Part shown: positions 4,457 to 54,767 of the stretch, one piece after another
Layout: every line of letters starts with the position of its first letter
Position numbering within the stretch: the first letter of the stretch is position 1
DNA from: Stropharia rugosoannulata
Taxonomy: Eukaryota; Basidiomycota; Agaricomycetes; Agaricales; Strophariaceae
NCBI GenBank assembly: GCA_028532985.1
Contig: JANCIK010000007.1
Span: 2,418,001-2,482,000 of the forward strand
Direction of reading: 5' to 3'
Length of the DNA stretch: 64,000 nucleotides
The notes under the pieces: model-generated
Told to the model about the DNA's origin: nothing
The model's database searches: none
What the model saw: the letters and a program-made list of their open reading frames with translations, nothing else
Made by a program: the position numbers and the translations under genes

Positions 4457-4903
4457 AGTGGGGGGGAGATGACAGGGCTGCTTTTTGGCTACGGGTGTAA
4501 ACAGTCAGAAGGTCCGTTAGTGGGATAGCTGCGCGCGGGAAAACACAGAGAGACTAGAGTGGAGCCTGCCTCGTAGTCTATAGCTATCAGCGCGCTTTAT
4601 GACTATAAGCACCTGCGTGCACTGTATTGCGAGAGAGATCGGTCAGCAAGCTGCACAGCCTAAAGTGCATAGTCTGGTCATCCGTGCGAGCGATCGAAGA
4701 GGCATAGAATGGTTAAGCACCAGCGAAGTGCGGTGTGAGTACAGCTGAGCAGATACCAAAGGCGGTGTGAAGGGCTGGTGCGTGTATCTCATATGCGCGC
4801 ATTGCAAAGGCAGAATTTGTCTAAGTCCACACATCATGTGACCGTGGCGGCGCGCATCAAAAGACGCGCAAAAGCCCGAGGGAATGAACGACATGCGCGC
4901 AGC
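4457..4903 (+). other. Putative polypurine tract and first part of an LTR
   Basis: AGTGGGGGGGAGA (about 4458-4470) looks like the polypurine tract of an LTR retrotransposon, followed at once by TGACAGGG, a possible LTR start. The KDZ element then interrupts the sequence at 4904. The continuation would be 23381 onward, where ATATAAACC near 23485 could be a TATA box. I found no second LTR copy in the window, so this is an inference from the purine tract and TG start only. Confidence 0.35.
4897..4903. repeat. Target site duplication of the KDZ element (left)
   Basis: GCGCAGC directly precedes the inverted repeat terminus CACATAG. The same seven bases follow the opposite terminus at 23374-23380. 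I tested neighbouring cut points: no 8-bp duplication is possible, and 7 bp is the longest perfect match. Confidence 0.85.
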
Positions 4904-5186
4904 CACATAGAACAGTCCCCTGGTACCGTACACTATAGTGTATTCGGGGACTATATATATACTATATGACATAACATCATTCCTGCCAATTCTTTATTTA
5001 GATCTCTGCCATGTGTCATAGACGGATCCGGCGACTAAACGTCTACCGTAGGCTATAGCATCATTCCGGCAGAATGCGGGTTCCCAGCCACCGTTCCAGC
5101 TCGGCATCGGGCTGACACACCTCCCCTCGGAGGGTCGGTCGGTGCCCCGAGGTGTTGGTCGGTGGCAAGCTACCCAGACTCAGCTT
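4904..5186 (+). repeat. Left terminal inverted repeat of the KDZ element
   Basis: It matches the reverse complement of 23111-23373. The outer ~93 bases are identical, and about 10 mismatches fall in the first 230 bp. The left copy has an extra ~20-bp block (CCCCGAGGTGTTGGTCGGTG) near 5155, flanked by GTCGGTG words, consistent with a short tandem duplication. The inner part is rich in CGG triplets. Confidence 0.92.
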
Positions 5187-5583
5187 GGTAATTAGCATCC
5201 TCAAAGCATCCCGATTGTTGTATAAGTAGGGGTTTTTAGTGCTCTTATATATATGATAGAGTAAAGTTACGACTGATATACCAGCTCCAACATCCTACAC
5301 CTGTCCTCAGCGCCGGCCACCGGATCCAGACGGACACCGATATCGACCTTTTAGATATAAGCATTCTATGTTAGTTATTGTCTTTGCTCATTGAATGCAT
5401 GTTGCTGTGATAGTAAGGTCGGCTAAATACTGGTGTTAATCGGACCTCTCCGACTACGCATCGGTATCCGATGAGTTCCATTTCGGCCCATCGGCACGTG
5501 ACATTCGCGTTGAAGTTAAATTTTCTTACTACCCTACTACTTAGTATACTACTACGACCGTCCATTGCACTACATCAGGTACC
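5187..5583 (+). promoter_or_regulatory. Presumed promoter region of the TET/JBP gene
   Basis: About 400 bases between the inverted repeat and the TET/JBP start. TATAAGTAG occurs near 5220 and TATATATGATAG near 5250. CGG-type words (ATCGGTATCCGATG near 5460, CATCGGCACGTG near 5490) are frequent. No ORF of its own is supported. Confidence 0.4.
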
Positions 5584-6886
5584 ATGTCGCATTTACTCGC
5601 ACTAGACTTGACAGAAACTGTTGCAAAATATATGAAAGCACGTTTCCACACAATTGTCACGGGCAAGGTGGTCAATATCCATTGGCCATACAATGCTTGT
5701 CTTCAATGTGATTGCGACGATATGGTTGATGAGGTCGTAACAGCATTTCGTAACCGCAGTAAGATAAGGACTGCTATTTGGTGGATGACTTGCTTACCAT
5801 TTCTAATAGAAGAGACATCTTGGAATGTTGAAGATTATGTTTCTTGTTTAACTCAAAAACAGAATAGTCAAAATGAAGAACTGGAGACAGCTATGTCCAA
5901 AAAATTTGGAGCATTACAAAGTAGCAAAGGCCTTATCACTGAGGCATGTCTGATCACAGACTTATCTGGAAATACGCTGTTGTGGTATCTCCCAAATACT
6001 CTAACAAAATCAAGAGCGGTTGAGTGTTCCACATTGTCCTTATAACAATAACTAAAAATAGTGGCAGAGTATGATATGGGAAGGTGTAGCATCCCTGGGG
6101 TCATTCATAAAAGTTGCAAACAAATCTAACGATTCAAGTGGACCAACATACTATGCCACAAGATCAGCATCGGAGTCCGGTCGGGAATTGAACACGGCGT
6201 CCGGTCGGGAATTGAGCTCGGCGTCCGGTCGGGAATTGGCATTGCATGACATTCCAGAGATCGCGTCAGGAACTGTAACAATTGCACCTTCCTGGTATGA
6301 GGTTGGTCATGAGGTGGGTGCCGTGACATGAGCACAGTGTCTGTATAACAACGAGAGTAACTAGAAGACCAATCTGGAAATGTCGTCTTTGTTAAATGCA
6401 AAGAACAGGAATTGGCTTGAGAGCCAGAAGGAGCTTTCGGCCTTGATTGGAGGCTTACTATCCATTATTCATCCAGAGCAGTACGAGCAAGGAATTGCTT
6501 GCTTGAAGTACATCCAGGCTCATCCCGATGTGCTTGCCAACTCAGCGGAATTGACCGAGGTGATGAATTTTTGGAGTGCCCCTTTTACAGCAATCACCAT
6601 TATCAGCAACCGCACTCCGTTTCACCGAGACACGGGAGCCGATACGAGTGCCTTTGATGTCTTGATCAACATTGGTACTACTCCCAATGTGTACTTTGAA
6701 TTACCCGGCCTGGGGATTAGACTGGCATACAGAGGTGGAACAGTCATCGGAATGTCATCAAGGTTACTTGTCCATGGGGTGGCTAACAACATTGACAGAA
6801 TTTGTATTATCTATCATTCTAAGCACACCATTACTGAAGGATTGCATGGAAAAGTACTCCCATGGATGAATATTTCTCAATTTTAG
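5584..6886 (+). CDS. TET/JBP-family 2-oxoglutarate/Fe(II) dioxygenase (5-methylcytosine oxidase)
   Basis: Three exons: 5584-6018, 6062-6313 and 6365-6886, with introns of 43 and 51 bases, encode 402 aa. The C-terminal ~110 residues carry the Tet_JBP signature: SNRTPFHRDTGAD gives the iron ligands His316 and Asp318 (HxD), followed by LPGLGIRLAYRGGTVIGMS, then the distal iron ligand His366 in LLVHGV and the 2-oxoglutarate Arg374 in NNIDRICI. In this family the enzyme oxidises 5-methylcytosine in DNA in the nucleus. All catalytic residues seen are intact. The middle has three near-repeats of SGREL(N/S/A). The length suits compact fungal forms. It is the outermost left gene and converges on the 690-aa gene with 69 bases between the stops. 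The demethylation role is established for the family; use against silencing of this element is inference. Confidence 0.88.
6168..6238 (+). repeat. Short tandem repeat in the TET/JBP gene
   Basis: Three copies of a unit containing GTCCGGTCGGGAATTG, spaced 27 bases apart, encode SGREL motifs. The unit holds a CCGG and a CGG triplet like many other words in the element. Confidence 0.75.
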
Positions 6887-6955
6887 TTAACTTTGCTCCT
6901 GTACTGTGTTCAAGTTTATTAATCATTTGTGCAAAAAAAGTCTGTACTATTACAT

Positions 6956-9130
6956 TCAGTCAATGTCAATGGTGCCCTGCTCAAAACCAAAGTTATCATC
7001 ATCATCTTCGTCATCATCAGCACTATCCTCAGATGCATCGGAGTCGTCATCGGAGTCCGAGTTTTCACTCGGAAGAGAGGAGAGAGCCGATGGAGGCCGG
7101 ACAGAATCAAGAATATTCGTGTCCGTGTCGCCATCGGCGTCATCGTCAGCATCGGCGTCATTGTAAGTAGACGAGGGAAAGCCTGGCAGGATATCTTCTT
7201 CATAAGCCGCAACACCAGTTAAATCGAGACTCTGCTCAGGAGAAGGTTCGGCACCACGCCGATCAAGAGTTGCGGGCAAAGCAAGATAACTGGTGTTTAC
7301 AATTCCATCGTCACCACGGCCAGAACTCTCGGAACCTTCATCTGATTGTTCAATGTTTGGAGGAATATCGTCTTCGACTTCCACGTCGGCAGTGAAGGCG
7401 GGAAAAGTTGCTGACCGATCGGGCTCCGACTCAAAGACCACTATGTTTGTCGGCATTGTGGGTGGCGGATCCTCACCATAGAAGTCATCTTCCTGCTGCA
7501 TACGATCGTCTTCACTCTGCCTCGCCTTCATGTCCGTATCGGAGACCTCCGACTCCACCGAGTGATTTCCGTTATCCTCCATAGCTTCACTTGTCGGGGG
7601 GAGCTCCTCGTCAATGGATTCGTCCGTGCTGTCAGTGATTTCAGAAAGGACTTCAATGGTCGGCGGGATGTCCTCGTCAAACTGTTTGTTGGGCATTTGG
7701 GGCCCGTTGGCGTCAGAAACGGAGTGCGACAGAAGAACGGGAGCCGGCAAGCCAATGTGTCCTCCGGGATGAACTGGATATTTAGAATTTGGTGAGAGAA
7801 TTCGAACGGACTTCGATTTCTCTGCTTGTCGCGGAGCCCGAGTCGGCACCGACTCGGATTGATCTGTTCAAAATTATTATTGTTTGTGGTGATTGATTTT
7901 TTCAGGGTACTTACTGGATGTTGACTTTATTGGCTTATCCTGCCCGTCTTCCCTTTCTGGCCGGAATTGACGCTTGAATTCTTCTGGTGGATTTGCACCG
8001 TACTTGTGAGGGATGACGCCGGTATCTGACACATGCTTTGCGATTGCTTCATATTGATTAATCACATAATTTGACCGCTGCATTGCCATGCCTACACTGC
8101 GTGTGGTAGATGCAAATTGGGTCCCAAGATTCTGCAATTCTTTAATTGCGGTGTCTGCCAAATCTTTCCATTGGGAGCACTTTTCGCAGACAACCCTCAA
8201 GGCTTCAGCATTAGGCAAGTTCAAGGTTGATGCCTGTGGTTGCGATGAGACATTCTTCACCCCAGACGTGCGTGATAGAGTCGCCGGTGACCATAATCGG
8301 GCGCCGGTCGATCGTTCCGATGACTTGTTCGGCGGTCCTGATCGACCCATTGGAGGTGGTTCCCTGCGATGGGATGGAGACGGTTCCCGTCGGTGGAATG
8401 GCCTCGGTGCTTGAGTCACCGGCAACACAATTTTGGATCTGTCGTACGCGGCTTGCCACTTTGGCAAGGCTAAGCAGTCATCTGGAATCGGTCGGGGGTT
8501 CAACGGCCACCGATCCTGATGCGTGTCGCGTTCCTCTGTCGTGCTTCTTTCTTCATCGTCCGCTTTCCTCCAGCCCCTGAATATGGTGCTCCCCAAGACG
8601 GCTTCCTCATACGCGGCCATGTGCTCGATGATGTCGACATAAGCTGGAATTGAATCAATGACATTTTGGCCTGATTGATTCCACCAATAATGGTTGTCTG
8701 CCGTCATGGCCAAGATAGCCGCGTCGTCATCTTCACTGTATTCTCGGTCCACCAATCCTGGTATGTTTGAGGAATCCGTTTCGTCCGATGGTTCGTACAT
8801 AGCGCGGACCATGAAGTCGAAAAAGTATGGAATTTCAATGACAAATCCCTGTACATGGCAAAATCCAATGTATGAAAGGGCAGCTTCCTAGTTCGCGCTG
8901 TATTAGTATGTCTATTTGAATAATAGCATTGTACTCACTACTTCTGCGGAGACATTGTACCAGTAAGGAAGGCCATCCCAAATATCTTTGAACACAGCCC
9001 TCGCAGCCATGCGCACCCGAGCCATGAGGAGGTGTACCTTGATGTTGGCGCGTTCCTGGCGATCACGGAAGTTAGATGCGTGAATGGGAAAGGGCATTTT
9101 GCCGACTAGATCAGGGGTATCGGGATCCAT
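6956..9130 (-). CDS. 690-aa protein with acidic tail, KDZ-element cargo
   Basis: Three exons: 9130-8939, 8887-7915 and 7863-6956 splice in phase to 691 codons with the stop. The start is ATG 9130 (MDPDTPDLVGKM). The N-terminal ~130 residues (aromatic and hydrophobic, for example DIWDGLPYWYNV and FVIEIPYFFDFMVRAMY) look folded. The middle is proline- and arginine-rich, then a helical stretch has a CEKC pair. The last ~300 residues are very acidic and hold four loose copies of (D/E)(D/E)xPPTxE, spaced through the tail, ending in runs of Asp. No family is recognised. It lies between TET/JBP and transposase on the transposase strand, 343 bases downstream of the transposase stop, so joint expression is plausible. 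An acidic tail could be a chromatin or activation surface; that is inference. Confidence 0.75.
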
Positions 9131-9473
9131 TCTATGACGCGAGGGTAAGGATAACAAAAGCGACTTTTACTGTTCCGTTGATGGTTGGATATAATCACAT
9201 GACATTTGTCGGTGTGTTCCGTTGATTACACAATCATATCACGTGTGTAGCATAGATCTCTACAGAAATACTTAATTGTCTATCTGTAAATGAGACGTTG
9301 AAATAAATGGCTCTTCAGTTACATTGCCCTACTAATTCCACATTTGAAGTTCCTTCAGTATATACACATGGAATGAACAAACAATATTGAACGAATATCG
9401 GCTTGTTAGCAAGTGTCGGATGCATCAGTCGCCGTGTCAGTCATGTGTGCTGTACAAAAGTGCAATTCTCTAA
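9131..9473. other. Spacer between transposase stop and 690-aa gene start
   Basis: This AT-rich sequence holds no gene I can support. It probably contains the promoter of the minus-strand gene starting at 9130 and the transposase 3' end. Confidence 0.4.
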
Positions 9474-12400
9474 TTAAACATATATCAGCCCAACATCTTC
9501 CCAAGCACGACTATGGTTAGGATGTGTTGAAATAAAAAGGTCTTCAGTTACACGGCCCAATTCATTCCACATTGAAAGTTGCTTTTGTGCATAAGCTTTG
9601 AATCCACGAAGAATACGATTTTGCATGTCAAAGGTGTTATGTGCTTCGCTTGCCATATCGGACGGGGGCCGACCGGCATCCGAACAGGCAGGGATATTTT
9701 CTCGATACGACCTCCAAGACTTGGCCTTGAATACAAAAAATCTGACGGTCCAGTTCATTTTGTTTTTGGTTAATTCAAGTTCTTCTGACCAACGAAGGTG
9801 CTGAGCACGAGCCCTAAGCCAATTTACACGGAGAACTATAGATCTTGTTAACTAAAAAATCAAGTATACAAATACATACTTACAATCCTCTAAGCGCTCA
9901 CTGGTTTCAAGTGCATCCGTTGTTTGTCCGACGGGAACTGACTCGGCCTCCGGGGCATCAGACCTGGTGCTTGTATCAGGGTCAGTTTCAACATTGAGAG
10001 TGCTCCATATCCATGACAATCGTAATCGACTTCCTCCTCGAACATTTGGATTGAAAACTGCTTCACTTGCTTGAGTATCCTCACGAGTAAGTTTCGGAAA
10101 TCTTCTTTGTACTTCTTCCTCTGATGATAGAGAGACCATTACGGCTCTGTTGGCCTGGAAAGCTTGTCAGTTTAGAGATATTGATGCTGATAACATTCCA
10201 ACACGTGTCGTGGCCCTTGTTAAGTGTGACCCGGTGGACCCCCGAACGTTGTTTTTGTACACCCAGGACAATTGAACAATCGCCGATTGAATAGATTCCA
10301 GGATATCTTCGGCATGACCTTTCCGAATTGCAAGTTCATGTTCTTGTAATCTACTCACAGTCTGCTTCTCATCGCGGTGAAGATGTCGAATCATACTTTC
10401 CGTGAAAGCTGATGGGAAAGGTAGTCTCTGCTGCTCGGGATCGGCCCGACTTTCTTCATAATGCTCGGTGCTGTCGGCGTCTTCATATTCACCTTCGATC
10501 AAGGAATTGTCGGTGTCCGCCCGATCGGTGAAAATTGCAACGGCTTCTTGCCCAATGTACTCGCAAGCCTGCTTTGAGAATTTATCCACTCGGGTCCGAA
10601 GATTTCTGCGCCGACGGACCAGATCCTGTCGTTGAGTTACAGTTGGATGTTTGGATAATTTTCGAACATGCGATCTTATTTCAGCTCTGTAGTGAATAAT
10701 TAGTATATTAAGAATCATTGTTTCTTGTTACTAACTGTGTTTGCTCAATCTTGAGGCCCTGAGATATCCACGTTGCCTGTCCAGTTGATCCATCTTCCTT
10801 CATTTCCTGTTCGGATAACATTAGTTCAACCTCCTGTCTGGATGCTGCTTTCTTGATCTTCGGAGCATAAATGTCCATTCCATCGGGTTTCTCTTCCCTT
10901 GTACTTTCAGCAGCCAATATTTCTGTCTCCCATCTGTCTTTCAGCTGTGGCCCAATCTTGTTGGTGAACTGCCTGAAATGTTCAGAGGCCTCCGAAGCCT
11001 CTTTGACTGCCCTTGTATATTTCTTCACAATTGTTGTTCCTATGTTTTCATTAGGTCATTTCCATTACATATTGATAGCAATCTACATCACCTATATGAA
11101 TCATTTTTTTCCAATCTGAGTCTCCCATATGGTCATCCAAAATTTCAGTCTGATGTGCCGTTGTCGCCCCCCGAGCTCCTCTTGAAACTTTATTCAAGAG
11201 ACTCCAAAGAGTCTCCAATATCTCTCCATCAACAATGCCCGCACCAGGAATATACGTGGATGCCCATCGGTACAAACATTCATCCTTGTGTCCATGGACA
11301 TGCCATAACCCAATAGCCCGGATTAGTCTTAATCGGCGTGGAAGCGAAATACCTTTCATTTTAGCAAATCGCGCACGTTGGTGAATTCCATATATGCACA
11401 TGATGTCGTAAATCATCATTGCCTGCTTTATCCCATCCATGTTTGTGTTCTTCACTGCTTCTGAGAAGCTATAATCCATGCAGATTTGCTGTTCCCCTAG
11501 TTGAAAGTCAACAACACTGCTTGGGCAGAAACAACCATGTCTTGCACAGGCCTGGGCGCCGATCCCCCTTGCCCTTCTGCCAGCAACAACCTTTTCGCTG
11601 TCTAGTTGCGCACGGTGAGAATGGCAATCAATTTTCTTCAATATTAATTAATAAATTTGAAGTGTATTCCGGAAGCACTAAGTACATACCTGCTTAAACA
11701 GCTTGGAATATTTGGCTGCATCAGCCAGATGCTGCTTGTATGGCTGTGCTGCGGTCATGAATGCATCTCCATAGGTGAGGTGAACGTCGTCCGCTTCATT
11801 CCGCTGATTAAGATGATCCGCCTTGAAATTGCCATCCGCACAAAATTTGCGAATGTAAAGGTATTGATGAGGATTGCTTTCCCAATTCTCAGGTAAATTG
11901 ATTCCTGGTTGAGGACAGGTTGGACAGAAAAGAGCCAGATGTTTGTTGATCGGCGCCGTCCCGGGCTCCGAAGGAGAGTCATCGGAGTCGATTCCCATGA
12001 GTATTGCATCATTGTTGGCATCTGTGCGAGGTTCCGAGTTACGAGCTGGAGCGGTTTCAGCGTCGGGACCCGCATTGGGAAATAGCCCGGTGCCCGATTC
12101 TGTGGTTGCGTCCTTGTCGGCCTCCGCCCGGGTGGTCTCCGATAATGCGTCCATAAACTCATACAGCTGTCTATCATATGCCCGCCCGTGTATTTTCCAT
12201 AACTTCATGTTTCTATAGCATCGGCTGAGGCGCCGAAGTTCTCGGTATCGATCTACCACTGCTGCAGGATAAGATGGACAGGTAAGGCGTCGAAGTTTGG
12301 CGTAATATTGGTACGCTGAAGTCTTGCATTCCAGGTTTGAGACACGAAAGTCCTTGAGGACTGTAAAGGTGAATACGGTCTCAATTTTATCGTAGCTTGT

Positions 12401-13425
12401 CGGTAACATTGACAATTCAATCCAGGGTAAATCAGGTTCTTGTAGTGAGCCAGGGCATAAACACCGAACGAAAGGTAAGTGATGAACACCTGTCACGTCA
12501 ACGATAGTAATGAACTTGTTGTCCTGGTTGTCATATGGTCTAGGTCGGGGAAGTATGTTTGGGTAGCCAAGTCGCATGTCAAATTCTTCCGCCAAGATTT
12601 CGTCTTCCCAATCTTCAGGCTCCGGGACGGCGCCGACCCGAGCCTCGCGCTCAAGGTCAGCTTCATGGAATTCTTCTGTTGCGATGTCAGCTGTAGGTAG
12701 CTCCCAGTTCGGATCTCGAAGGAAAGATTAACTTTTGATATTAAAGACAGATTTAACTTCTACCTGCATCTTCAACATAAGGCCTAGATGGACATCTTTG
12801 CCCTTGGTGGCCTAGGTGTAGTTTTATTCCCAGTTGCCACAGAGCGCCAGTCTTAAAGCAACTCTCTTGCCATCTCTCGACCCGGTGTAGAATTTGGAAT
12901 TGATGTTCGCGACGGCAGCACACGGTACACAGAAATCGGCCACCGAAGCAATCCCGGCACCGCCATTTCCCTTGATTTAAGTTACAACCTTGACATTTTA
13001 GATTTTCGGGAGCAGGCGCTTCGTTTGCAATCCAGATTTGCAAGTGCCGCTTTCGTCGGTGCACCCATTCACGAAGAAATGTATTCTGGGACTAGGAAAT
13101 GTAAGCTGACATCTTTATTTGACTATTCTTGACTTACCTTTCCCCTATGCACAAATGCAGGCAGAGCTTCAAGATTTCTTATTGCGTCTTCCTGAGTAAC
13201 ATCTCCTGGATAATGTGCCATGGTGAATATCTCCTCTACACTCTGCTGTGCGCAAGATACTGATGCCTTCGTTGCTGCAGGAACAGTGTACACTCCGGCC
13301 ATTTTTCTTGGACGTCAAGCGTGCGCCCTACGTTGTTTCACTGGTCTCCCTTTGTCGTTCAATTGGATAGGCTTGTCATCGTCGCTCCCGACGGACATCA
13401 TATGTATGTGGCTGCGAGAACTCAT
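9474..13425 (-). CDS. KDZ transposase with CxC2 cysteine cluster (one in-frame TGA)
   Basis: Eight exons splice in phase: 13425-13138, 13085-12764 (or from 13091), 12714-11690, 11635-11092, 11039-10736, 10686-10203, 10154-9884 and about 9836-9474, giving ~1200 codons. A CxC2-type cluster (C127xxC130, C139xxC142, C149xxC152, then His) is followed by LHRVERW. The catalytic KDZ block in exon 4 shows ARHGCFCPSSVVDF, MDYSF (Asp ~599), YDIMC, WHVHGHKDEC, then GAGIVDGEILETLWSLLN and TEILDDHM. The C-terminus has the usual VNWLRARAQHLRW helix. KDZ enzymes are RNase H-fold transposases that cut at the element ends. Odd: TGA at 13315-13317 (codon 37) separates an N-terminal leader (MSSRSHIHMM) from the rest in the same frame. 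Translation could start at ATG 13302 (MAGVYTVPA), or this copy is inactivated. Divergent from the gene at 14141. Confidence 0.88.
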
Positions 13426-14140
13426 TATCAGAGGACAGAGATCAGCAAAGCAGAAGTGAAGTTCTATGATACCTTTCGTACTCCTTTTATATGTTCGGTA
13501 CAAACAATTGACTTGGATCCGTGAGCCAATGAAGTAACAAGTAAAAATTAAATATGTTCAATGAATGTAGAATACTATGACAAAATTGTATTCATTATCT
13601 TATTGTTTTTTTCACTCTTGTTCTTGTTTATTGTTCAGAACTTCAGTGCACAATGTATTACAGGTCAGTAAAGAACAACAACCCGTCTAAGCGGGTTGGG
13701 CATGGATGCCAACACAACAGGATAATATAATATCTTTTGTATAATGTACATGAACACACTTCATATGCAACTGGTATTGCCTAGTTGCATTATCCGCATT
13801 GAACACGACCAATATTTATTTACAGCAGTAGAAACGGTGTAAATTAATCAAACTCTAAGAAGGATGAGGAGAATAACGTCATCCCACTCTTCATCAGGTG
13901 TTCACTGCAATTACACTCTCTATCATAGAATCTGTATGTATTCTTCGAAAAATCTCGTGAATATCTACCTCATTACCTCATATCAGCTGTATAGATCGGC
14001 ATCGGTCGGCGACATGTCGGAATCACCGATCAGATCAGATCCTTTAATTTATCGGTGGCGTGCAAATTGCGACATAGCATGCGCCTTGCCAAAAGGGGTC
14101 AAATTCTAATTACTAACTTAACATTACCCATTCATGATCC
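13426..14140. promoter_or_regulatory. Divergent intergenic region between transposase and the 14141 gene
   Basis: About 715 bases separate the two divergent starts, so both promoters should lie here. AT-rich with CGG words clustered near 13990-14040 (ATCGGCATCGGTCGGCGAC, CACCGATC). No gene is supported. Confidence 0.5.
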
Positions 14141-16648
14141 ATGCCTCCGTCTACCGAAGAGACAGTGATTGCAGCGGCGAAGGATGCATCAGTTCCAGAG
14201 CCATGGACAGCCAAAGAAAAAGAGATCTTGAAAACCCATCTGGATGCATATAAGGCCCAGAAGAGAGGGCAAAAAAACACATGGTTACGAGATGTTGTTT
14301 TACTGTTGATAAGGGAGTGCTATAAGGAAAGGTATAGCCGGAATGCCATAGAGAAGGATCCAGAGGCAAAGAAGCAATGGAAGAATAGGAAATTGGTGAG
14401 CGAAACACTGATTGACTCTCCGGTCGGTGTCCGAATCAGCTCAAAAACTGGCATAATTATTTAGCGGGTGTACAACTGGTTTCGCAATCATGGAAGAAAA
14501 GAACGTACCCTCCATATTCCAGGGCTCAACTACAAAATGACTTTTGATACCGTTGTCACTGCCAAAAAAAAAAAGGAAATTGAGGTTTTGGCACGGAGTC
14601 GGGCCAGCGCCAACATCGATGCCAGCAGTCGGGAATGGATAGGTCACTACCAAGGAGCAAAAAAAATAATCAAGGAAGAACTGACAGATGAAGAACAGGA
14701 AGAGTACTTGAAGGAGTTGGAGCAATGGCAACTAAACGGTGTGCCAAAGGACATACAGATTGAGTGAGCACCAAGATCTTCGTTACTTTGATCTTTAATC
14801 ACGTCAACATTAGGAATGCCATGAAATATTCCACTAAAGTGGCCAAAGCGGCGGATAAGATCAAATGGGAAAGTATGGGCATCCGAACAACATCATTCTC
14901 CTGCTTCCAAGGCGAAGACGGGAAAGGGGTGTATACTGTGTGAGCATGTCAATTGTGTTTAACCAGTAGTGCGTTCCTAAAAACTAAACAAATATAGCTT
15001 TGACACGCAGAATATGCAGGGCAGCACCCCTACATATGTTCCTAGCTTCCAGAGATGGGCTCCAAAGGAATTCAATATGTTCCTGAAGAAATACATCGAG
15101 TATACCAAATTTGCCATCAAGCTTAGCGCCGTCGGGCGAGCGGGATGCTAATTCCACTGCTAGTCCAGTATTGGTCAACAAGGGTGGTTTGCCACGTGTA
15201 CCGCCAGTAATTACGAGCAGCACAGGTGTCGAATACCTTGAAACGCAGGAAAGGGCAATACGCCAATACATTGGTCAACACTACAAGTTGGCGTATGGCA
15301 GAAAAGCTGCCACACCTTACAAATTTATGACTGACGGGGATTACCATTGGAGCATTTTTGTTGACGAAATCTACATGCCCGAGGGAATTGAATTCAGCGA
15401 TCCTCACAGTTACAAAGTTCATCAGACCAGCCAGATTCTGAGATTATGGAGATATAGGGAAAGCCAGGGCGAACTGCCATTCCGGTTTTCAAATGTGAAG
15501 CAGGATGACATACCGGGGTCTGCCCGATACCCTGAGGGAATGTTGACAGAGTTTAAAGCCCCCAGCTCACGGTCAGTCCCTATGGAAGAGAGAACTGCTG
15601 CACCGAGGGCCGAAGTGGCAGATGTCGGCGCCGATACGGGTTCCGACATGGCAGAAGAGGGCGCCGAGGCGGGCCCCGAACACGCAAATGTCGGCGCCGA
15701 GACGGGCACCGATACCTATTCAAGTACGGAAGGTGCAGATTCAGCTGAATTTTCAGATTCCACAACGAAGCTGGATGTGGGTACGAACCAAGCTCCCAAG
15801 GTTTGTTGAATCATTGTTTTTGTTGCTTAAAATAATATGTGACTATAAATCAGCACCGAGGAGTTTCAGTGCAATTTTCGTTGAGAAAGGGGAAGGAGAA
15901 GCAGGGCGGCGCCGACCGGGGGCCGACAACAAGATTTCCAACGCCAGCGGAGTCCACCGACAACTTTTTACAGGACACAGATTCAGATCATTCGCTCACC
16001 GATGGTTCCCGTGTTCAAAAGGAGAGACCTAGGCCAAGACCGAGAGGTTTGGCTTCAACACAAAGGTCATCGATGAACATTCAAGCATTAACACCAGATG
16101 TGTCAGTGGCATCCAGTCAGACACCTGAAAGTAATGTACAATCCGAGGATGATGCCGGCAACCAAAAGCAGGTGAAGATCAGAAGGGGGAAATCGACCAT
16201 CATGAAAATAAGGATCGAATCTTCTGAAAGCGAAGTGGCTGCGGATCAACCCGATCAGCCCCCGAGCACACCAGTCCAAAATCCAATTCCTGAAATTCCC
16301 ATGCTCCGGCCATGCAAAGCAAACTTTAAGAAGCAACAAGAGGATGCTAGCATTGGAAATGAAACGCCCGATCGGCTCCCGAGCACGCCAGTCCAAAATC
16401 CAATGCCTGAAACTCCCATACTCCGGCCATGCAAAGCAAACTTTAAGAAGAATCAACAGGATGCTAACTCTGAAAATGAAACGCATTCTCGGCAGCCGAC
16501 CGAGAATATATATACTCGTCAAATGACTAGAAGATCTCGTAAACGTACAGAAAAAGGTGCTGCATATGATCAGATGATTGGGTCTAGTCCCACAGTTGTT
16601 GGTTCTTCACCATCCATGACCATGTATAAGAAGAGAGGGGACAATTGA
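14141..16648 (+). CDS. Putative DNA-binding cargo protein with homeodomain-like WFRNH motif
   Basis: Predicted exons: 14141-14395, 14465-14763, 14814-14939, 14998 to ~15800, and 15854-16648. The first splice joins KNRKL to RVYNWFRNHGRK, which resembles the recognition helix of homeodomains (WFxN followed by basic residues). The first 85 residues are helical and lysine-rich. The tail is low complexity with an imperfect duplication of ~38 residues (PSTPVQNP...RPCKANFKK, about 16255-16480). Between ~15085 and 15115 the frame shifts by one with no intron long enough, so there is either an indel in an AAATTT stretch or a sequencing error; downstream the frame is open again (232 codons). Family not recognised; the DNA-binding role is inferred from one motif. 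Transcribed away from the transposase. Confidence 0.6.
16255..16485 (+). repeat. Direct duplication of ~117 bp in the 14141 gene
   Basis: Two copies in tandem share the segments encoding STPVQNP, LRPCKANFKK and NET, with several substitutions. The frame is kept across the repeat. Confidence 0.7.
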
Positions 16649-18129
16649 ATACTCAGATCCCTTGATGTATACAGTCATCACCCGGTCAATGTTACATAAT
16701 CAGTCAATGATACAAACCGTTGATATCTCACTAAGTTCCCAATGAAACTCTTCGATTTTTTTTGCTATACAATCAGTAGTATGTGAAGATACAAAGTCTG
16801 CCAGTATTTTTCTCTTTTCTTTGCGAGAAAGTGGGTTATTCGAATTTTTCTGTCAATTTTTCTGTCACAATCAGACTGCATGAATAATTTTGCCAATTGT
16901 AACATGCTATAATGATCGAATAATGCAAAATAAACAGCATAGATAGAAGGTATATACACTAAGGAATGACTGGAGACAGGCTTTGAAGCTCTGGCATATG
17001 GGAGCTGTGATATTTCGGTACAGTTTGTCGTGACTAGACTCTCATGGACCAGTAAAAATATACCAAACCAGATCTAGCTTGATAACACAATTTTTGCAGC
17101 AAACACACATTTCTACTGCTCTATCTCAGATTCGAGGTCTGTACTTTGCATCAATATGGTTGGAAGAGCAAGATCTGAAGCAACAAAGTCGCAAGAATAC
17201 GGTGCTGCCCACAATGTCCTCATGTCACGTGCAGTGGAAGCTTATCATCACGAGCTTGACAAGGTCGAGGAATGCACACAATCTGCCGAGACTACGAGAA
17301 AATGAATTTTGAGGCTACTACAGGCAATTTAATTAAACTTAGCCATATAACTTTATCACACTTGGTCAATGGGGGAATGATAATTCAGGAGTCAAATGCA
17401 GCTTAAAGTTGGCTCACCAATGCCAAGACCAAGGTTGTAATCAGCTATATTATTGAGTGCAGCAACAGAGGATTTCCATTGAGCCACAGATTGGCCACAG
17501 ACGGCTCCGGGACCAAGTTAACCAAATCTTTACATGCTTGGTTGAAGGATAAACTTCCTCCTAATGGAGTCAGACATAACTGGACACACCATGGAACAAA
17601 TGCCGTGAGTATGCCAAAGCACATGGGAAACTCCAGCTCTTCAAGGAATTAAAGCCAAAAAGTAGTGCAAAATTGAAGCCCAAGCAAGGATTCCTCCAGC
17701 AGTGATGAAGACAATGAAGACGACGGTTGATTGCAATCCTTATCAGCAACTCTGGTTGCTCGGCAATTGTGCAGCCGCCTGTGCCGCACCACCGCCGTGC
17801 ATGTGTATCAGTGTTTGGGATTTCGCCAAAACGGGCACATGTCATCAAATTGTTCACACCGCATGTAAAAATACATCGTTTGCTATAAAAAGTGAGAGAC
17901 AAGTGAATACGAAGCCTGTCTAGTGGTTAAATGAATCCATAAAGATATCCCGCCCAAAAATTATGAGAAAAATCATATTTATTGATTTCCTGTCACAAGG
18001 ACCGGGTGATAACTGTATCAGAATACCAATGAATTTATAATGATAACAAGATATGACATTACAAAAAAGAATAAAGAGGTAGAGATTAAGTACATTCACA
18101 AAAAGTATCTACAAAATACATGCTTGAAC
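16649..18129 (+). other. Non-genic region with a possible decayed gag fragment
   Basis: No intact gene. A 50-codon ORF (ATG 17156 to stop 17308) reads as plausible protein but matches nothing I know. Near 17810-17855 one plus frame gives C-L-G-F-R-Q-N-G-H-M-S-S-N-C, which is a CCHC zinc knuckle with the second Cys replaced by Phe. Lysine-rich stretches lie just before it. This may be a relic of a retroelement gag inserted in the KDZ element, but stops break all frames. Confidence 0.3.
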
Positions 18130-21100
18130 TCATGTCTTCTTTTTCTTCCCATGTCCCGTTGTCATCACGCGGCGGGGCGGCTTGTCATTGATTTTCCTCT
18201 TCTTGCTGACTCTCCCGGCTATGGTATCCGTGTCGTCTTGAAGCTCTGGAGGTATTTGGGGACGTGCTTCCACCCACGGTTCCGTACCTGCCGCCCGTTT
18301 ACGCAACCGAGAGGGACCGGGACCCGAATCGGGCGCCGCGGAATCGTCGTCCTCGATGTTTGTCAGTGGGGAGAGGCCGTCTTGATCCATCATCGCGTTG
18401 ATGCCCTGAGACATTAACCGCTGCTCTGTTGCGGCGTCGTGTGATTTCTCCAGAAGCTGGTCGATTACGTTGACGAGGGTTGGGTTGGCCCCCATCTGAA
18501 CAGCTATGTCGCCTGAAAAAGAAAGAAATTATTACAAAACTAACAGAATGCAATAAGTACTCACTTGACTCCTCCAGTGGACAGTCTTGACGTCCATCCG
18601 CGACACCAGGGGAATCTTTCTGATTTGGGATGCTCGTATCTGTGGGAATGAACGCAGAAACATTTGGATCTTCGACTTCATTAGAAGCCTCGGCAGATTC
18701 CTCTGATCTGCATTGAGCGACGTCCTCGGACTCTTGCACCGGATCCGGAGTTGCAACGGCGGGTGTCACCTCGGCACTCTTCTCGGAGTCCGGCTCGTTC
18801 TCTTGCTGACGCTCAGAGTCCTCTGGCGTTAGAACCGTTGATTTCGCGTCGGCAGCATCGTCGGAGTCCGAGTTGTTCCCCGGCTGGTTCTCACCAGAGG
18901 CGTCATGCGAGACCCGGGGGCCTTCGTCAGCCACAGAGTTCTGCGCAGATGCCTCGGCATTCCCGGTCGGTTCCGATTCTTGTCCCGGTTGCTGATATTT
19001 GGACGCCGATTGCTCGGGCTCCGTGTCCTGTACCTCGGTCGCTTCCGTTTGTTGTCCGGCCCATTCATCGCCGGCCATCGATTGCTCAGGCCCCTGCGCA
19101 GTCTGTTCTGGACCCAATGACAGGGCTGTGACCAACTGCTCCGTTGTCGACTGTTGGTGCGCCTCCTGACCGTCGTCCATCGCATGTTCGGCCTCCGGAG
19201 GCTCCTGCGCAGTAGCTTCCGCTGGTGGCCGGCCCGTGCTCACCACTTCCGCCACCTCTTGTGCATCACCAATCACGTACTCGGCGGCCGGCCGGGAATC
19301 ATGCGCAGAAGGCATCTGCGCCTGTTCGCCTTGTATGATGGCCTCGGTGCCCGACGAGCTATCCGACAAGACAAACCGTCGCTTCCGGGAGGATACCTGT
19401 CGGTAACTCACTTCTGTCGAGGTGTTCAGAAGCCCATCGCCTTGGACCTGTTCTGACCATTGTATTGGTCCTCGATCGAGTGCGATTGCCATTCGAGAGA
19501 CTTGTTCCCCGACTCGATGTAGCCTTTTCCCCTGTGCCACCTGCTCGGTCATAACCTGCTGGACGTTGTCCATCACGACTCGCATGTCTTGCAATGTCTT
19601 CACTAGAAGCTCGCCCAGGTTTGTTGGAATGAAGTCATCGGCGCCGCCCCGATCGGTCTCCATGGCCTGAAGAGGCTGTGCAAATTGACCCAAGGGGGTC
19701 TCATAATGCAATGTCGACTGCAATCTGTATCGGTTGCGTGCCGACCGGGAACGCCTCCTTGCCATATTCTTGACTTCCTTTTCGCCCCACCCGTCGTCTT
19801 CGTCAGAGCTGGTTGCCTTATCCTCGGAGTCGGAACTTCGACTGTCGTAGCCATCATCTGTCACATACCTCCTCCTGTTATCCTCGCCGCGGCTAAGTTC
19901 ACATTTGACCTTCATCGTCTTGCATCGGAGACATGCAATCCGCTTCTCATCGGGATCCCTTTCCCATTTCAAGCGGTCCCGCAACGTGTACTTATCGCGA
20001 TATTGGCAGGCGTGGCCGCCCAAGAGACACCGCTTGCAAGGACGAGGCGACTCGACGACCGCTGACGCCTTCCTCTTTTTTGCCTCTTCCAACGGTTTGA
20101 ACGTCGGATCCAAACGGCTGGTCTGGTCGGCGTCTTCACTTAGTTCCATGTATTTCTTGCGCATGGACCTACGTGTCGGGCCCCGAGTCAGCGGCCGAGG
20201 AGCGATGTCATCCTTTCCTGGACGCTTCGTCCTTGTTGGAAGAACCACCACCGGCCGTGTGGACTTGTTAGGTGGACGGCGCACTTGCTTTGATGTACTG
20301 GTCCTATTCTCCTGTGTATTCGTATTGTTATCCTCTCCGTTGCTCTGCTCAAGCTTGTCTACCTCCATCTCCTGGTTCTCCATTGTGTCCATGGTGTCCG
20401 AACCCGTGGGAGCCGCTGTTTCAATCCGGCGATCCAGACGCGAAGGACCTGCTTCGGCCATTTCATGCTGCATCGGGGTATCTCCGAGGTCCGTCGGCGT
20501 CGTTCCGACCTTCTTTGGGGGTGCTAGGTCTGTTTCGAAGGGAGCCATGATCTGCCCTTTGTGAACTACGACTGAGGTTGCAACGCCGTCATCCTTCAGA
20601 ACGACACCGACTTTCTTCTGGGATCTCGGTGGTGATATTCGGCCTGGGCTCGGAGCATGTCCGAGGTCTATCAATGACCCAATCTGCCCTGTTGTCACCG
20701 TATCGACTCTTGATCCCTGGGCTGCTGACTCTAGCGGCTCTTCTTCCGAGGACACATATACGTTTGACGTTATCTTTTTGCGAGTCTGTATATATATTTG
20801 TTACCATTATTTTGTAAATATCTTACTGCTTACCTTACGAGGCTGCTTCTTTGCCGTATCAGTGGGCAATTTGGCCCGGGTGACAGAGTCTAAAGAGCGC
20901 GTAATGATGTCAGCATGGAGCGACCAGCATGTCTTGTTGGGCTCACCTTCGTCCCTCACTTTTCCTTTGCCTTTCTCTTCCTTCTTTGCCCTTCCCCTCC
21001 CTTTATCCGCACTCTGTTCCATCTCCTTCGCGTCGGTTCCAACCTTTGCCTTGTTTTCCTTTGTATTTGATCTCATTTTGAACCAGCTGGGGATTGCTTG

Positions 21101-21550
21101 ACCTATATCAAATGTGATTACTGTACAAAGTAATGTAGAACATGGAAATAACGTACCACCAAATAACACATTTTTCGGTATCCCACCTGCACTCTCCTCT
21201 ATACCAACTAGTGCGGTCATCCCTCCAGTCATCCGGCTATGCAGACCATCAAAAGTGAAATGTTGCTTAGATTTTTCGAGATCGACACTGTAGTGGTAGA
21301 CATAGTCTACTAGCGTCCATGGCGTGGTTTCACGGTTTAACTGGTGTCGACGCAGCTGAAGCGGCACCACAAGAATGTATTGTCAAAGAAAATCAGTTGA
21401 TGATGTGAAAAAACAACTCACCTCTTTAGCACGCGCCCACAAACTAGGCCACCATTCTGGAAACCCCGTCTCATCCTTGCGCGCCCATATTTCAACTAAC
21501 TGCTTATGCAACTCGGCGCATGACGAAAGGAAGGCGCTTTGGGACGACAT
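18130..21550 (-). CDS. 1066-aa protein with Zn2Cys6-like cluster, KDZ-element cargo
   Basis: Five exons: 21550-21422, 21355-21157, 21102-20834, 20785-18565 and 18512-18130 splice in phase to 1067 codons with the stop. The start is ATG 21550 (MSSQSAFLSSC). The N-terminus is globular with tryptophans (FPEWWPSLWARAKE). Residues ~449-494 form a six-cysteine cluster CX2CX6C-X24-CX2CX6C with Arg and Lys after the second pair (CLRCKTMKVKC). Fungal Zn2Cys6 regulators use the same half-sites but normally have a 5-12 residue linker, so this is a long-loop variant or a convergent zinc module. Basic tracts (KRPGKDD, RRSMRKK) flank it, and a C-terminal ~450-residue Gln/Glu/Ser-rich low-complexity region follows. 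The end is KKRKINDK and GHGKKKKT, likely nuclear signals. Divergent from the small gene at 22004. A role in binding the element's DNA is inference. Confidence 0.78.
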
Positions 21551-22003
21551 TTTGAAGGAGGGATACCGGGGAGTCGCGTAGCGGGATGCGGTCGAGGTAC
21601 GACAGGATGCTAGGCGGATGCAGGCGCGACGGGGTGGGAACCGAACGTGAAGAAGAGGGTAGAAGAGTGCGACGAGACGCGAGTGATAGCGCAATGGCGC
21701 GGCGGCTGATGGGCGAGACGCGATGAGAGGCGCGACGCGACGCGTGGAGGAGTGCTTGGAAGAAAATGACAAGTCCAAATCGGACGCAAGCTGATGTTCT
21801 TCAACTTGGGCCAAATATGATCAAAGTCGGTCATATGACCTGTGCCGCCGGTCTTTTATTCGGCCACTGGTGACAGCCGGTGACCGTTATAGATGGCCGG
21901 CGACAACCGATGACTGTTAATGGTGGGTGGATGTCTGTAAAGGCCAGATCTGATAAAAGATTGCTTACCTTCTGCCAGTCCTACTAAGTATATAATAGTT
22001 ACT
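21551..22003. promoter_or_regulatory. Divergent intergenic region
   Basis: About 450 bases between the 1066-aa gene and the small SIM-motif gene. The part near 21600-21760 is GC-rich with many CGACGCG-type words. The part from 21850 has CCGGTGAC and GCCGGC words. Both promoters are expected here. Confidence 0.45.
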
Positions 22004-22404
22004 ATGCGCCCTTGTAAGTAAGAAATTTGTACTATGTAAAGTCATAATGAATAAGCAATATAGCCTACTTGAAGAGAAAGGCTGCTCACCTGGAAAGCAG
22101 TGATGAAGATATCGAAGTCTCCAGCCCCATCCCTATCCCGAGATATTTTGATGGTGGTCCTATGGATGCAGATAGCGATTCTTCAATGGAAGTGACCAGC
22201 CCAATACCAATACCTATACAGAGCGACTACTCAATGGAGATATCAAGCCAGATTTCAACGTTCAGTGATAACAGCATTGAGGTTTCAAGTCCAATTACAG
22301 TGAAGACAATTATCGAAATCTCGGACTCCGACAACGGATCGGAGGCGGTCGGAGACGGGCTTGGCTGTATAACTAGTGCTGATAGTGAGCATGAATCCTC
22401 TTGA
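22004..22404 (+). CDS. Small acidic protein with SUMO-interaction-like motif
   Basis: A 10-base first exon (22004-22013, ATG CGC CCT T) splices to 22064 in phase, giving MRPSYLKRKAAHLESS and about 115 residues. It contains four loose repeats of (I/M)EVSSPIPIP type and the stretch TIIEISDSDNGSE, a hydrophobic core followed by acidic and serine residues as in SUMO-interacting motifs. The very short first exon is the weak point; the alternative is that the ORF is a fragment. No family recognised. Confidence 0.5.
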
Positions 22405-22439
22405 ACGCTTGCTCATTTAATTACACATATAAAAGCTAG

Positions 22440-22816
22440 GGAAATTAGAACAAAACTATTGAACTCGGCCACCGACCGACCTTTGTCGGACATTGTAGAC
22501 ATCAATTTAGATCGTGTAATGGATATTACATGGAATGTCCCCAATAATTATGTGCGGCGTCTTGACGTCCTTCTAAACTCTTTACCTAACCCTTACATAG
22601 ACTATGTTTTCTCTCGAAGATGTATATGAAACCTCAAAACTGATTGACGATATGAAACTGGGACCAGACTTTCAAACCAAACTGTCAAGCCTAATCAATG
22701 CTCGGAAACAACAATATTATATGGAGAGGGCATACTGGGAGCTGTGTAATGATGGTCTCCAGGGTTTAACCACCATTCAGCAAAACCTCGCACACTGGAG
22801 GGACCGGTTGGCATAG
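22440..22816 (+). CDS. Small hypothetical ORF(s) near the right end of the KDZ element
   Basis: An open frame runs from ~22441 (EIRTKLLNSATDRPLSDIVDI) and could splice at 22554/22602 (49 bases, with a CTAAC branch site) into the frame starting MFSLEDVYETSKLIDDMK, ending at 22816. I cannot link it to the preceding gene without a frame conflict. Function unknown. Confidence 0.35.
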
Positions 22817-23110
22817 AAAAACATTCATATATAAGCATTACTGGAAATTGAATAATATATCGGCAAGTGTGTCGGCCCCCGACCTGTGCTACATCATTTG
22901 TCTGTTGTCCTGCACATTTTTAAAGGTTTGAGGCCTTATAACGGAGCCTCGGTTACCGATAATGAATGCTCATGCCCCAAGACGGTTGATTGTTAATTTA
23001 TCGGACGGCTCCGAGGGGGTGATACAAAAGACACTAGTATATACGCAATGTCCTCCTTGAGAGCTTGGGGCACTATTTTTGGTCCTTAAACTGATCCGAC
23101 TGCAAGCGCC
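22817..23110. other. Subterminal region before the right inverted repeat
   Basis: Nothing coding is supported. CGG words continue (ATCGGCAAGTGTGTCGG near 22860, TATCGGACGG near 22998). Confidence 0.4.
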
Positions 23111-23373
23111 ACACCGAGTCCTGGTAGCTTGCCACCGACCGACCCTCCGAGAGGAGGTGTGTCGGCCCGACGCCGAGCTGGAATGGTGGCTGGGAACCCG
23201 CATTCTGCTGGAATGACGCTATTGCCTACGGTAGACGTTTAGTAGCCGGATCCGTCTGTGACACATGGCAGAGATATAAATAAAGAATTGGCAGGAATGA
23301 TGTTATGTCATATAGTATATATATAGTCCCCGAATACACTATAGTGTACGGTACCAGGGGACTGTTCTATGTG
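23111..23373 (-). repeat. Right terminal inverted repeat of the KDZ element
   Basis: Inverted copy of 4904-5186, about 96% identical over the outer 230 bp and ending CTATGTG. It lacks the ~20-bp extra block of the left copy. Confidence 0.92.
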
Positions 23374-23380
23374 GCGCAGC
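23374..23380. repeat. Target site duplication of the KDZ element (right)
   Basis: GCGCAGC, identical to 4897-4903. Confidence 0.85.
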
Positions 23381-24786
23381 GAATGCCAAGGGATCAGGAC
23401 ACTCGAAGGGAAGCCCGGATGCGATGCGCGGACCTTTGGCCACGCGTTGCTAGTATTTACTTTACCTTATTATTAGTACACATGCGTGCATCGCATATAA
23501 ACCTGTATCCTTGTCTATAGTAATTTAAGCAATTGTCTACCCACTAGATCTGTGTGCTGGGTTCTGTCCCAGGCCGTCAGCGGGCTGTGTTTAGCTTTTG
23601 TTAGGGTTTTAACTGTGAAGTGTTTGTGAATCATAGGAGTTTTGGATAGCTTCTGACCGCCGGGTCATTTGGAGAGCTCAGTGAGGAGTCAGTACAACTG
23701 TGTACGGAAACTCGCACTGTAGTGTTTAGACTGTGAGACTGCACTGCCGGGTGAAAGACTTTGGAGAGTCTTGGATTATTGGACTTTGGAGAGTCCGCGC
23801 ATCATACGAGGTCACCGGACCCGGAAGTGCGCGCAGCGAAACCGTTCGCTAAAAACAACTTATTTCATTTATCATTTTGCTTTGCGCACGCCACTAGCAA
23901 CCGGGCTCTATCCGAGATTTACTAGAATTAAACCCCTCCTTACAAACGAACTTGCAGGCACTACTTGCTATTACAAAGACTAGAGGACACGAGGTGCGCG
24001 CATCGCATGCCCAGAACGGGAACCAGAGCAGAGCATAGATTATACTACCATTTAGTTGAGGGCGTTTGCTCGATCTAAGGGATAGGATCTCGCTCCGCTG
24101 GGTGTGTGTGTGTGTTGTGTTTCGCGATTTCGAGTCTAGCTACGCAGTAGACCTCTCACCGGCACCGGTACAGCTCTGCATGGGGGAGAGGCATTGGTGT
24201 CGGGAACGGACGGTGCGGGGTGTTAAGCTTGGACAGAGGCAGGGGCCTCGAACATAATATGTGGTGCTTGAATGTAATGCATGGGATCTTGATCCTAAGC
24301 GTGGGGCTTGAAAGTGGGACTGGGCGCGTGCGCATTAGCCTGTACATTTGTATTGGGGACGCGGGACGTAGATCGGCCGGGGGCGGACCGTGGACCCCCG
24401 AGTACGAGGAGCGGACATGAATTGTTGTACACTGAAGGCAGGGAGTGGAATGCACGGGAGACCATTGGCCATGGCTGGGTTCATGTACACTCATAGGCGG
24501 GTGGTATTATTAAACAACTCGATGCACGGGAGCCTGGGCTTGGGCACTGTAGGCATGGAGGTAATAGGACCGAGATGCAGGACAGTTTGTAGGTACCCCA
24601 TGTAGTCCGCGCATACACGATCCAATATGTAACGTGCGTCTATGCCGGCCAGCTAGGTGAGCAGTAAGCCAAGCTATTGCATGAAGTCCAGACTATCACG
24701 GGTACACACTGGGGCTGCAGTGTGCAAACAAATGCTGTATGCGCTGTGGACGATGGTTTCTGAGCTGAGGAAGTCAGTGCCGTAGC
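23381..24786 (+). other. Continuation of LTR-like sequence, then unassigned repeats
   Basis: If the KDZ element is removed, this joins 4903. ATATAAACC near 23485 could be a TATA box of the interrupted LTR; its end is not identified (a CA end near 23975 is possible). From 24220 the sequence holds short words shared with 40220-40510, for example GCACGGGAGCCTGG/GCGCGGGAGCCTGG and GCCGGCCAGCTA, so a decayed repeat family is present. No gene is supported. Confidence 0.35.
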
Positions 24787-53900: not shown

Positions 53901-54293
53901 ACCCAATAAAGGTTCATGATATCATTGGACGTGAACACATATTTCACATCCGTCAGAACGTAAGATCCAACTTATCAACGATATGGCACTGACATTATTG
54001 ATATCTTAGCTTCGGGCTGATGTTGGGTTACTGTCCAACTTCTATGATGATGCTAAGCACATTTATGTGCTATCACATGGCAAACAGTGCATTCCTATAC
54101 ATGTTTGCTGTCTCAATCTGCCCGACAACAATTCATCTATCTTCCACAGACTTACTAAGTCCCAATTTGATCATATTGAGCCTCCAAACTTGCAAGCCCT
54201 GTTTCGCTCTCATCATTTCGTTATTACCAATGAAAACACTCCTTTGTCCTTCGATGAACAAGGCTTGAAGACCTTGGAAAAAACACTGACCTC
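50974..54293 (+). CDS. Large hypothetical host gene, 3' end cut by a Gypsy LTR
   Basis: Predicted exons: 50974-50989, 51057-51220, 51277-51887, 51937-53797 (with a possible 69-base intron at ~52024-52092), 53846-53959 and 54010 to the LTR at 54294. The start reads MGTDNMDLVSEKLSS. The N-terminal ~270 residues are helical. Then a ~45-residue unit ending MPTIPA(V/A)LQNHAEPAP occurs twice. A very acidic region follows with three ~45-residue repeats (xDAEGEV...RDSLVGDDEDTSSSSE). The C-terminal part (HIYVLSHGKQCIPIHVCCLNLPD is in it) looks folded again. The natural 3' end is missing: the frame enters the LTR and stops at 54375. No family recognised. The interruption suggests a damaged allele or that a truncated protein is made. 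Confidence 0.65.
53165..53560 (+). repeat. Three internal repeats of ~135 bp in the 50974 gene
   Basis: Three in-frame copies encode DGRESLVQDDED, DCRDSLVGDDED and DYRDSLVGDDES with the same preceding EGEV/EREV blocks. A separate pair of repeats encoding SAID(T/R)TA...HAEPAP lies at about 52255-52515. Confidence 0.75.
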
Positions 54294-54756
54294 TGTAAGG
54301 GCGACTCTGCGCAGTGTCGAGCTCACACGAGACCTAGCAGAGGGATTCCGAAGTTTATTAAGCTGTAAACTATAAATACAATAGAAGCGCACCTAGCAGA
54401 GGGATTCCGAAGACAAAAGCCTAAGGAAACCCGCTGCTGGGCGCCACAGTACATAATAGAAGCGTTGATTGATGCATGAGAATAAACTATACAGTTGATC
54501 CGCCACAAGAAGCCACCACATCACGTCCTCATGTGATGTGCATCATACATCATATGCACAACACATGATGGACGTGTCCCATCAGTACGTCACATGATGT
54601 AAACCACGCGCGCCTGTGCACAGTACACACTGCAGAGCATAGTGTACACTGCACGGGCTGCGCGCGGCGTAAGAAATAAAAATAAAATAAAATAAAAGAA
54701 AGTAAAGGAAGACGAAATGAAATAAAATAAAGGGTGACGCACAGCGTCCCCTTACA
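54294..54756 (-). repeat. Gypsy LTR
   Basis: 463 bp with 8-bp inverted ends TGTAAGGG and CCCTTACA. An internal direct repeat CCTAGCAGAGGGATTCCGAAG occurs at about 54340 and 54391. The 5-bp flank on the left is ACCTC; the partner copy is lost. Confidence 0.7.
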
Positions 54757-54767
54757 TCACCCCCCCT

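Follow-up and report, generated by a model that had tools for sequence, protein, structure and literature searches.

A TET-bearing Kyakuja-type KDZ transposon of Stropharia rugosoannulata and its partner genes

The locus described here bears on the question of why some fungal transposons come with a TET gene. It lies in a window of 64,000 nucleotides of Stropharia rugosoannulata DNA (bases 2418001-2482000 of contig C7), which we analysed against the whole genome of 47.97 Mb in 20 contigs. The original prediction for this window was a KDZ transposon with a TET/JBP gene and further cargo, together forming a self-contained system for transposition and removal of methylation. Our analysis indicates that the element, called copy A below, is very probably (about 0.8) an autonomous-looking, recently active TET+ cut-and-paste transposon of the Kyakuja type of KDZ elements with a conserved multi-gene core, and it leads to a different view of the part played by TET.

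Structure and classification of the window element

Copy A is a complete KDZ (Kyakuja-type) transposon spanning positions 4904-23373 of the window, with the termini CACATAG..CTATGTG (Table 1). Its arms align over 253 nt at 94% identity (counted from 4892, thus including 12 flanking bases) and over another 35 nt at 83%; in an ungapped comparison, 240 of 277 bases match. The intact ends, inverted repeats and 7-bp duplication that had been predicted are thus confirmed, as is the identity of the outermost arms, although the identical stretch measures 97 bases and not 93. The suggested search for an empty site was also successful: when the flanks of copy A are fused, keeping one duplication, they align through the point of fusion at 4 of 4 tested loci (B, C, G and F, those tested that carry the flanking repeat), and over the 36 bases displayed there no difference is found in B or G, against 3 in C and 5 in F. 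Copy A sits inside this repeat of ~1.2 kb (window 4470-4903 and 23374-24161), which we infer to be LTR-like; copy B is located in another copy of it, and a further one is inserted within copy C.

Table 1. Features of copy A, in window coordinates.
Feature	Position	Strand	Remarks
Left target-site duplication	4897..4903	.	GCGCAGC (7 bp), read from sequence
Left terminal inverted repeat	4904..5180	+	first bases CACATAGAACAGTCCCC; outer 97 bases equal to right arm
TET/JBP dioxygenase gene	5584..6886	+	blocks 5584-~6031, probably part of ~6071-6313, and 6365-6886; PF12851
ACID, 690-aa predicted protein	6956..9130	-	conserved N-terminal region, C-x2-C, acidic tail
KDZ transposase gene (1163-aa model, no interruptions)	9406..13401	-	CxC2 and KDZ domains
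HD, 729-aa predicted protein	14141..16648	+	WFRNHGRK motif; homeodomain-like protein of the original prediction
Secondary insertion, 1.34 kb	16672..18015	.	16-bp ends CAGTYATCACCCGGTC, TA duplication
ZN, 1032-aa model	18130..21550	-	two C-x2-C-x6-C half-clusters, then coiled-coil-like region
SIM, small predicted protein	22063..22404	+	repeated IEVSSPIPIP motifs, IIEISDSD
Right terminal inverted repeat	23097..23373	-	terminus is the reverse complement of CACATAGAACAGTCCCC; arm comparison
Right target-site duplication	23374..23380	.	GCGCAGC, read from sequence

The six or so genes that had been predicted in one piece proved to be six. The transposase gene matches PF18758 (E 1.2e-33) and PF18803 (E 1.6e-14), each on single exons, and the TET gene matches PF12851 (E 2.8e-14) when its two outer coding blocks are joined, the limits of the middle block being uncertain; together with the ends, these domains support the proposed link of an intact KDZ element with a TET/JBP gene. 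The TET protein is also similar to the CcTET structures 8jkk and 7vpn (E ~1e-19) and has retained the H-x-D motif as well as the later Asp and distal His residues. Among the CcTET residues whose roles are given in PMC12730594 (e.g. Gly331 and Asp337), the equivalent of Asp337 is present in copy A and the 331 position, where Gly or Ser would be expected of the AG type, is occupied by Ala; it is Gly in the TET of family 4 and Ser in that of family 3 (see below for these families). The tail of ACID (window 6956-7863) contains repeated EDDIPPTIEV-like motifs, and the motifs of SIM, judged by eye, look SUMO-interaction-like. The segment at 16672-18015 was inserted later, in the space between two genes, and lies outside the element proper, which therefore measures ~17.1 kb: copy A alone has it, none of B, C, D, E and G does, and a query of 16663-18010 found no second copy in the genome.

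Copy A has a KDZ domain, a 7-bp TSD and 5'-CA..TG-3' termini, as expected of the Kyakuja type, and was assigned to Kyakuja over Zisupton and Dileera by its TSD and ends rather than by a transposase tree. The TET+ Kyakuja transposons of Agaricomycetes, as defined by Kojima 2025 (PMC12730594), likewise combine a KDZ protein with CxC2, a TET/JBP gene (AG-like, as that of copy A probably is), a 7-bp TSD and 5'-CA..TG-3' ends; such elements are already published and copy A is one more of them. Zisupton and Dileera, other branches of KDZ, also have the KDZ catalytic domain but 8-bp TSDs (PMC12730594), against 7 bp here. The Laccaria families Kyakuja-1_LB and Kyakuja-2_LB are described without TIRs (PMC12730594), whereas those found here are ~250-870 bp long; as this absence is reported for two Laccaria families only, we do not take it as defining Kyakuja. 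The IS3EU TET+ elements (PMC12730594) also have TET beside the transposase and another conserved gene in a fixed order, but they belong to another superfamily, have a 6-bp TSD and carry an alpha-kinase as the extra gene. KDZ1 of Cryptococcus (PMC12810828), whose movement was shown, is a KDZ element with TIRs of 241 bp; it differs from copy A in its size (~11 kb), 8-bp TSD and CxC1, and in that the consulted part of its description mentions no TET. Intact KDZ genes of Pleurotus have a CxC2 region ahead, as in copy A (PMC7641404), and KDZ and Plavaka TIR motifs have been catalogued in Marasmius (PMC8290104); unlike for copy A, the consulted parts of these two papers describe no further gene set. 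Nor do those of PMC12730594 describe further Kyakuja genes, and in the literature looked at, as far as its text was available to us, we found no mention of a fixed five-gene order, a TET-less family or an exchange of transposase genes.

Conservation of the gene set across the genome

With the left arm as query, the genome yielded 40 matches, 12 of them long (241-277 bp) and at 96-100% identity, that of copy A included. Over aligned bases, the identity to copy A is 99.2% for B, 98.9% for E, 93.3% for C, 92.9% for D and 92.6% for G, and all of these copies of the main family (family 1) have the same gene set, except that in G the right end is missing, and with it SIM and the start of ZN. A, B, C and E each have a perfect TSD, D is without the outer 31 bases of one arm, and E contains two inserts of ~2.9 and ~26.7 kb. 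Of the 17,004 sites compared, 10 carry non-CpG changes private to copy A, which marks it as recent. The expectation that copies would keep their gene content thus held for the main family, with two kinds of exception: locus F (C7:2916906) is a remnant of one arm and a ~690-bp TET piece, and five arm pairs at 75-82% identity lie 1.7-4.4 kb apart, too short for the genes of copy A, which suggests that they are short non-autonomous relatives. At C8:3362784-3365474, the one short arm pair read, there is no matching TSD.

The positions of the six genes were then grouped genome-wide at a gap limit of 12 kb, part of the secondary exon and fragmentary KDZ rows being set aside. The order TET> <ACID <KDZ HD> <ZN SIM>, in either direction, is found in 39 of the 46 clusters holding at least two of the six genes; another five depart from it only in that a KDZ hit adjoins or a second element faces the first, and two (C4:2045909 and C5:1641680) break it. 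TET, ACID, KDZ, HD and ZN occur together in 23 clusters (20 of them clean), so that within this genome the cargo genes are indeed co-conserved with KDZ, and in this fixed order. TET is present in 30 clusters overall, and six clusters consist of ACID, KDZ, HD and ZN with no Pfam TET match, one of these being element H, which has TET-like pieces. KDZ genes also occur without this core: KDZ-only clusters number 44-50, depending on the grouping version, although partners may have been missed in them. The genome-wide search for SIM found it at family 1 and 2 loci only.

One element was read from each of families 2, 3 and 4, in addition to element H (contig C9). All start with CACATAGRACAGT, and these ends are common to family 5 too; the TSDs are CTGCCCC (family 2), GCGCATA/GCACATA (family 3, 6 of 7 bases), TCTGTCC (family 4) and AACAGGA (H). 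Identity between families outside the transposase is ~24-62%, and between copy A and family 4 it is 42% for TET, 32-37% for HD, 24% for ACID and 53-69% for KDZ. What persists in the diverged families is the WF.N motif of HD with the block after it, the two C-x2-C-x6-C half-clusters of ZN (the second longer by one residue in family 3) and the C-x2-C and N-terminal region of ACID. Short acidic repeats also occur in the ACID tails of copy A and families 3-5 (e.g. DEDEPPMEV), in the forms EDDIPPTIEV in copy A, EEAPLDV in family 4 and DEPPMEV in family 3, and are possibly a conserved docking motif. The gene order common to these related families is partly common ancestry. At C8:121368-147733, two family 3-type elements face each other with their TET genes ~7.5 kb apart. 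In element H, the KDZ gene is broken in its 5' part by an insert of ~6 kb. Both ends of this insert match window positions 54293-55181 at 97% identity; the repeat in question, which may be an LTR element, thus also lies elsewhere in the window.

All genes were shown to be under purifying selection in the copies compared (A against C, D and G, or C and D only for SIM, with 300 randomisations per comparison). The dN/dS values are 0.22-0.25 for TET, 0.30-0.34 for ACID, 0.28-0.31 for KDZ, 0.48-0.53 for HD and 0.39-0.44 for ZN; for SIM the value is 0.27, from 7 synonymous and 7 amino-acid changes in each comparison. The observed share of amino-acid changes was reached by 0-2 of the 300 randomisations for the five larger genes and by 4-6 for SIM. 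Relative to the models of copy A, the only in-frame stops affect ACID, with one each in C and G, and HD, with a single one in G.

These data bear on whether the extra genes came in as passengers, by capture from the host, or through separate insertions. The 1.34-kb segment of copy A is a genuine separate insertion, the extra genes belong to no named family, and a few ACID, ZN and HD matches stand alone (6, 2 and 2 clusters, respectively), as such an origin would predict. However, diverged families have the gene order in common, selection acts on every gene, and no convincing inverted pair of at least 30 nt brackets any single gene of the element (ends shorter than 30 nt being outside the scope of this search), making passengers a highly improbable explanation. 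Apart from locus F and the short arm pairs, we saw in the main family neither copies devoid of most genes nor cargo genes that are secondary insertions, the two outcomes named beforehand as contrary to the original prediction.

The identities of the partner proteins are less clear. Such TET elements reportedly encode additional proteins as a rule, including one with a divergent HMG domain (Iyer et al. 2014). For HD, a Pfam scan of four members brought up neither a Homeobox nor an HMG model at E<=5, and a profile search of the PDB found no homeodomain match, leaving its earlier description as homeodomain-like unsupported; a structural model of exon 2 only, an intron splitting the motif region, had a pLDDT of 69.6 and no convincing structural match. 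What speaks for the Zn2Cys6-like character proposed for ZN is that two half-clusters are present and PF00172 is matched weakly (E 0.0013, with 4 of 5 family members matching at E<=5), but the first member scores 19.2 bits against a cut-off of 21 and the loop between the halves looks long. Sequence and structure searches recognised no relatives of known function for ACID, HD or ZN, and the helper roles considered below are therefore conjectural.

The transposase itself appears to have a separate history. Between families 3 and 4, compared like family 5 by a single element each, KDZ is 95% identical in amino acids over 723 codons (dS 0.22), and identity is 66% for TET (dS 1.95), 53% for HD (dS 1.95), 47% for ZN (dS 1.5) and 36% for ACID (saturated). 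In bins of 200 bases, the DNA identity is ~87-98% over family-3 positions 4118 to ~7800 and ~68-74% at positions 8000-9000, across the start of HD; it drops at a sharp edge between the 5' end of KDZ and the HD gene. The KDZ of family 5 is of the same type as those of families 3 and 4 (98%, dS 0.24 over 142 codons). The simplest reading is that the transposase segment would have moved by gene conversion or recombination, as a swapped or converted cassette.

Loss of TET and CpG decay

The family 5 element at C1:2399915-2413053 has 871-bp arms at 98.5% identity and a perfect TSD, ATTGAGT, on both sides. It carries ZN, HD, KDZ and ACID, and what is left of TET is ~45 C-terminal codons, in a space of ~450 bases that separates the arm from the end of the ACID frame. 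Two more copies, C1:2193k (99.2%) and C8:1153k (93.6%), align through this space without a large gap, and the loss of TET is therefore common to all three family 5 copies sampled (the ends were checked in C1:2399915-2413053, and a fourth copy, on C13, lies outside the sample). TET was dispensable for the past spread of family 5, making it look optional and the other genes look like the core. However, other elements could supply TET in trans, so family 5 does not prove that TET is without a role.

A second view of TET comes from private changes, i.e. those present in one copy only, which we classified by type and CpG context in six family 1 copies. In copy A, C-to-T at CpG makes up 46 of 56 and C-to-T elsewhere is absent, although only 1856 of its 8705 C/G sites are CpG; the same class accounts for 36 of 45 in B, 52 of 73 in E, 77 of 124 in D and 103 of 134 in G. 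Copy C (C1:2697633-2715893) has 14 of 61, and its 47 other changes equal those of D (47), so that C-to-T at CpG is ~5x rarer in C than in D, as if C had escaped methylation. All NCG contexts are affected, whereas in rusts the reported pattern is TCG (PMC12730594). Among the family 5 copies, the counts are 1/3, 6/7 (C1:2193k) and 5/43, from few changes. This pattern is what deamination of 5mC leaves and suggests that the elements were methylated in the past; cytosine methyltransferase family matches are found on contigs C3, C4 and C6.

According to the cis-acting scheme, TET demethylates its own element and is integral to a self-contained mobile system. The methyltransferase matches in the genome would fit this, as would the low dN/dS of TET with its metal-binding residues present, its occurrence in 30 clusters (including, by definition, all 23 with five genes) and the low CpG decay of copy C, which is that of a copy kept clean. 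Yet family 5 spread with a scrap of TET, and the TET-bearing copies A, B, D, E and G decay mainly at CpG, with an excess over non-CpG C>T changes of 18- to 44-fold, against a weaker 4.5-fold (pooled) in five copies of the LTR-like repeat, all from small numbers of changes. Carriage of TET therefore did not keep these copies CpG-clean, C being the exception, and we consider demethylation in cis doubtful. Family 5 and the CpG decay in five of six copies likewise leave unsupported the earlier suggestion that removal of methylation is integral to the system.

Another possibility is that TET rewrites 5mC to stable oxidised regulatory marks, which may in turn raise CpG mutation. The surroundings of Kyakuja in Coprinopsis are reported to be rich in oxidised 5mC (PMC12730594), and the very high CpG C>T excess of the family 1 copies would agree with this. 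However, plain deamination of 5mC predicts the same excess, and the TET-less C1:2193k has it too (6 of its 7 changes), so such rewriting seems to us unlikely.

Model and significance

In the mechanism that we propose for copy A as a TET+ Kyakuja-type transposon, the KDZ/CxC2 protein would bind the long CACATAG ends, cut, and insert with a 7-bp stagger. HD and ZN may be helpers that bind DNA or chromatin in the nucleus, and ACID, with its repeated putative docking motifs, may be an acidic adaptor, each serving the transposase or its expression. TET would be a semi-dispensable accessory, able to act in trans on 5mC, that could loosen silencing briefly and would not hold its own copy free of methylation. 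Tentatively, we extend this to the whole element population: ACID, HD and ZN, and not TET, would be the obligate partners of KDZ; the transposase gene would be a cassette swapped between families that keep their other genes and ends distinct; and TET would be an optional, trans-acting resource of all elements, whose carriers remain methylated and continue to decay, occasional copies of low methylation, such as C, being escapees.

One genome holds families with TET, a family whose ends are perfect but which lacks TET, and copies that are equally old by their non-CpG changes yet differ strongly in CpG decay, which makes the anti-silencing idea directly testable. Our finding also points to an exchange of transposases between element families, and it adds three conserved proteins, ACID, HD and ZN, for any account of Kyakuja transposition to explain.
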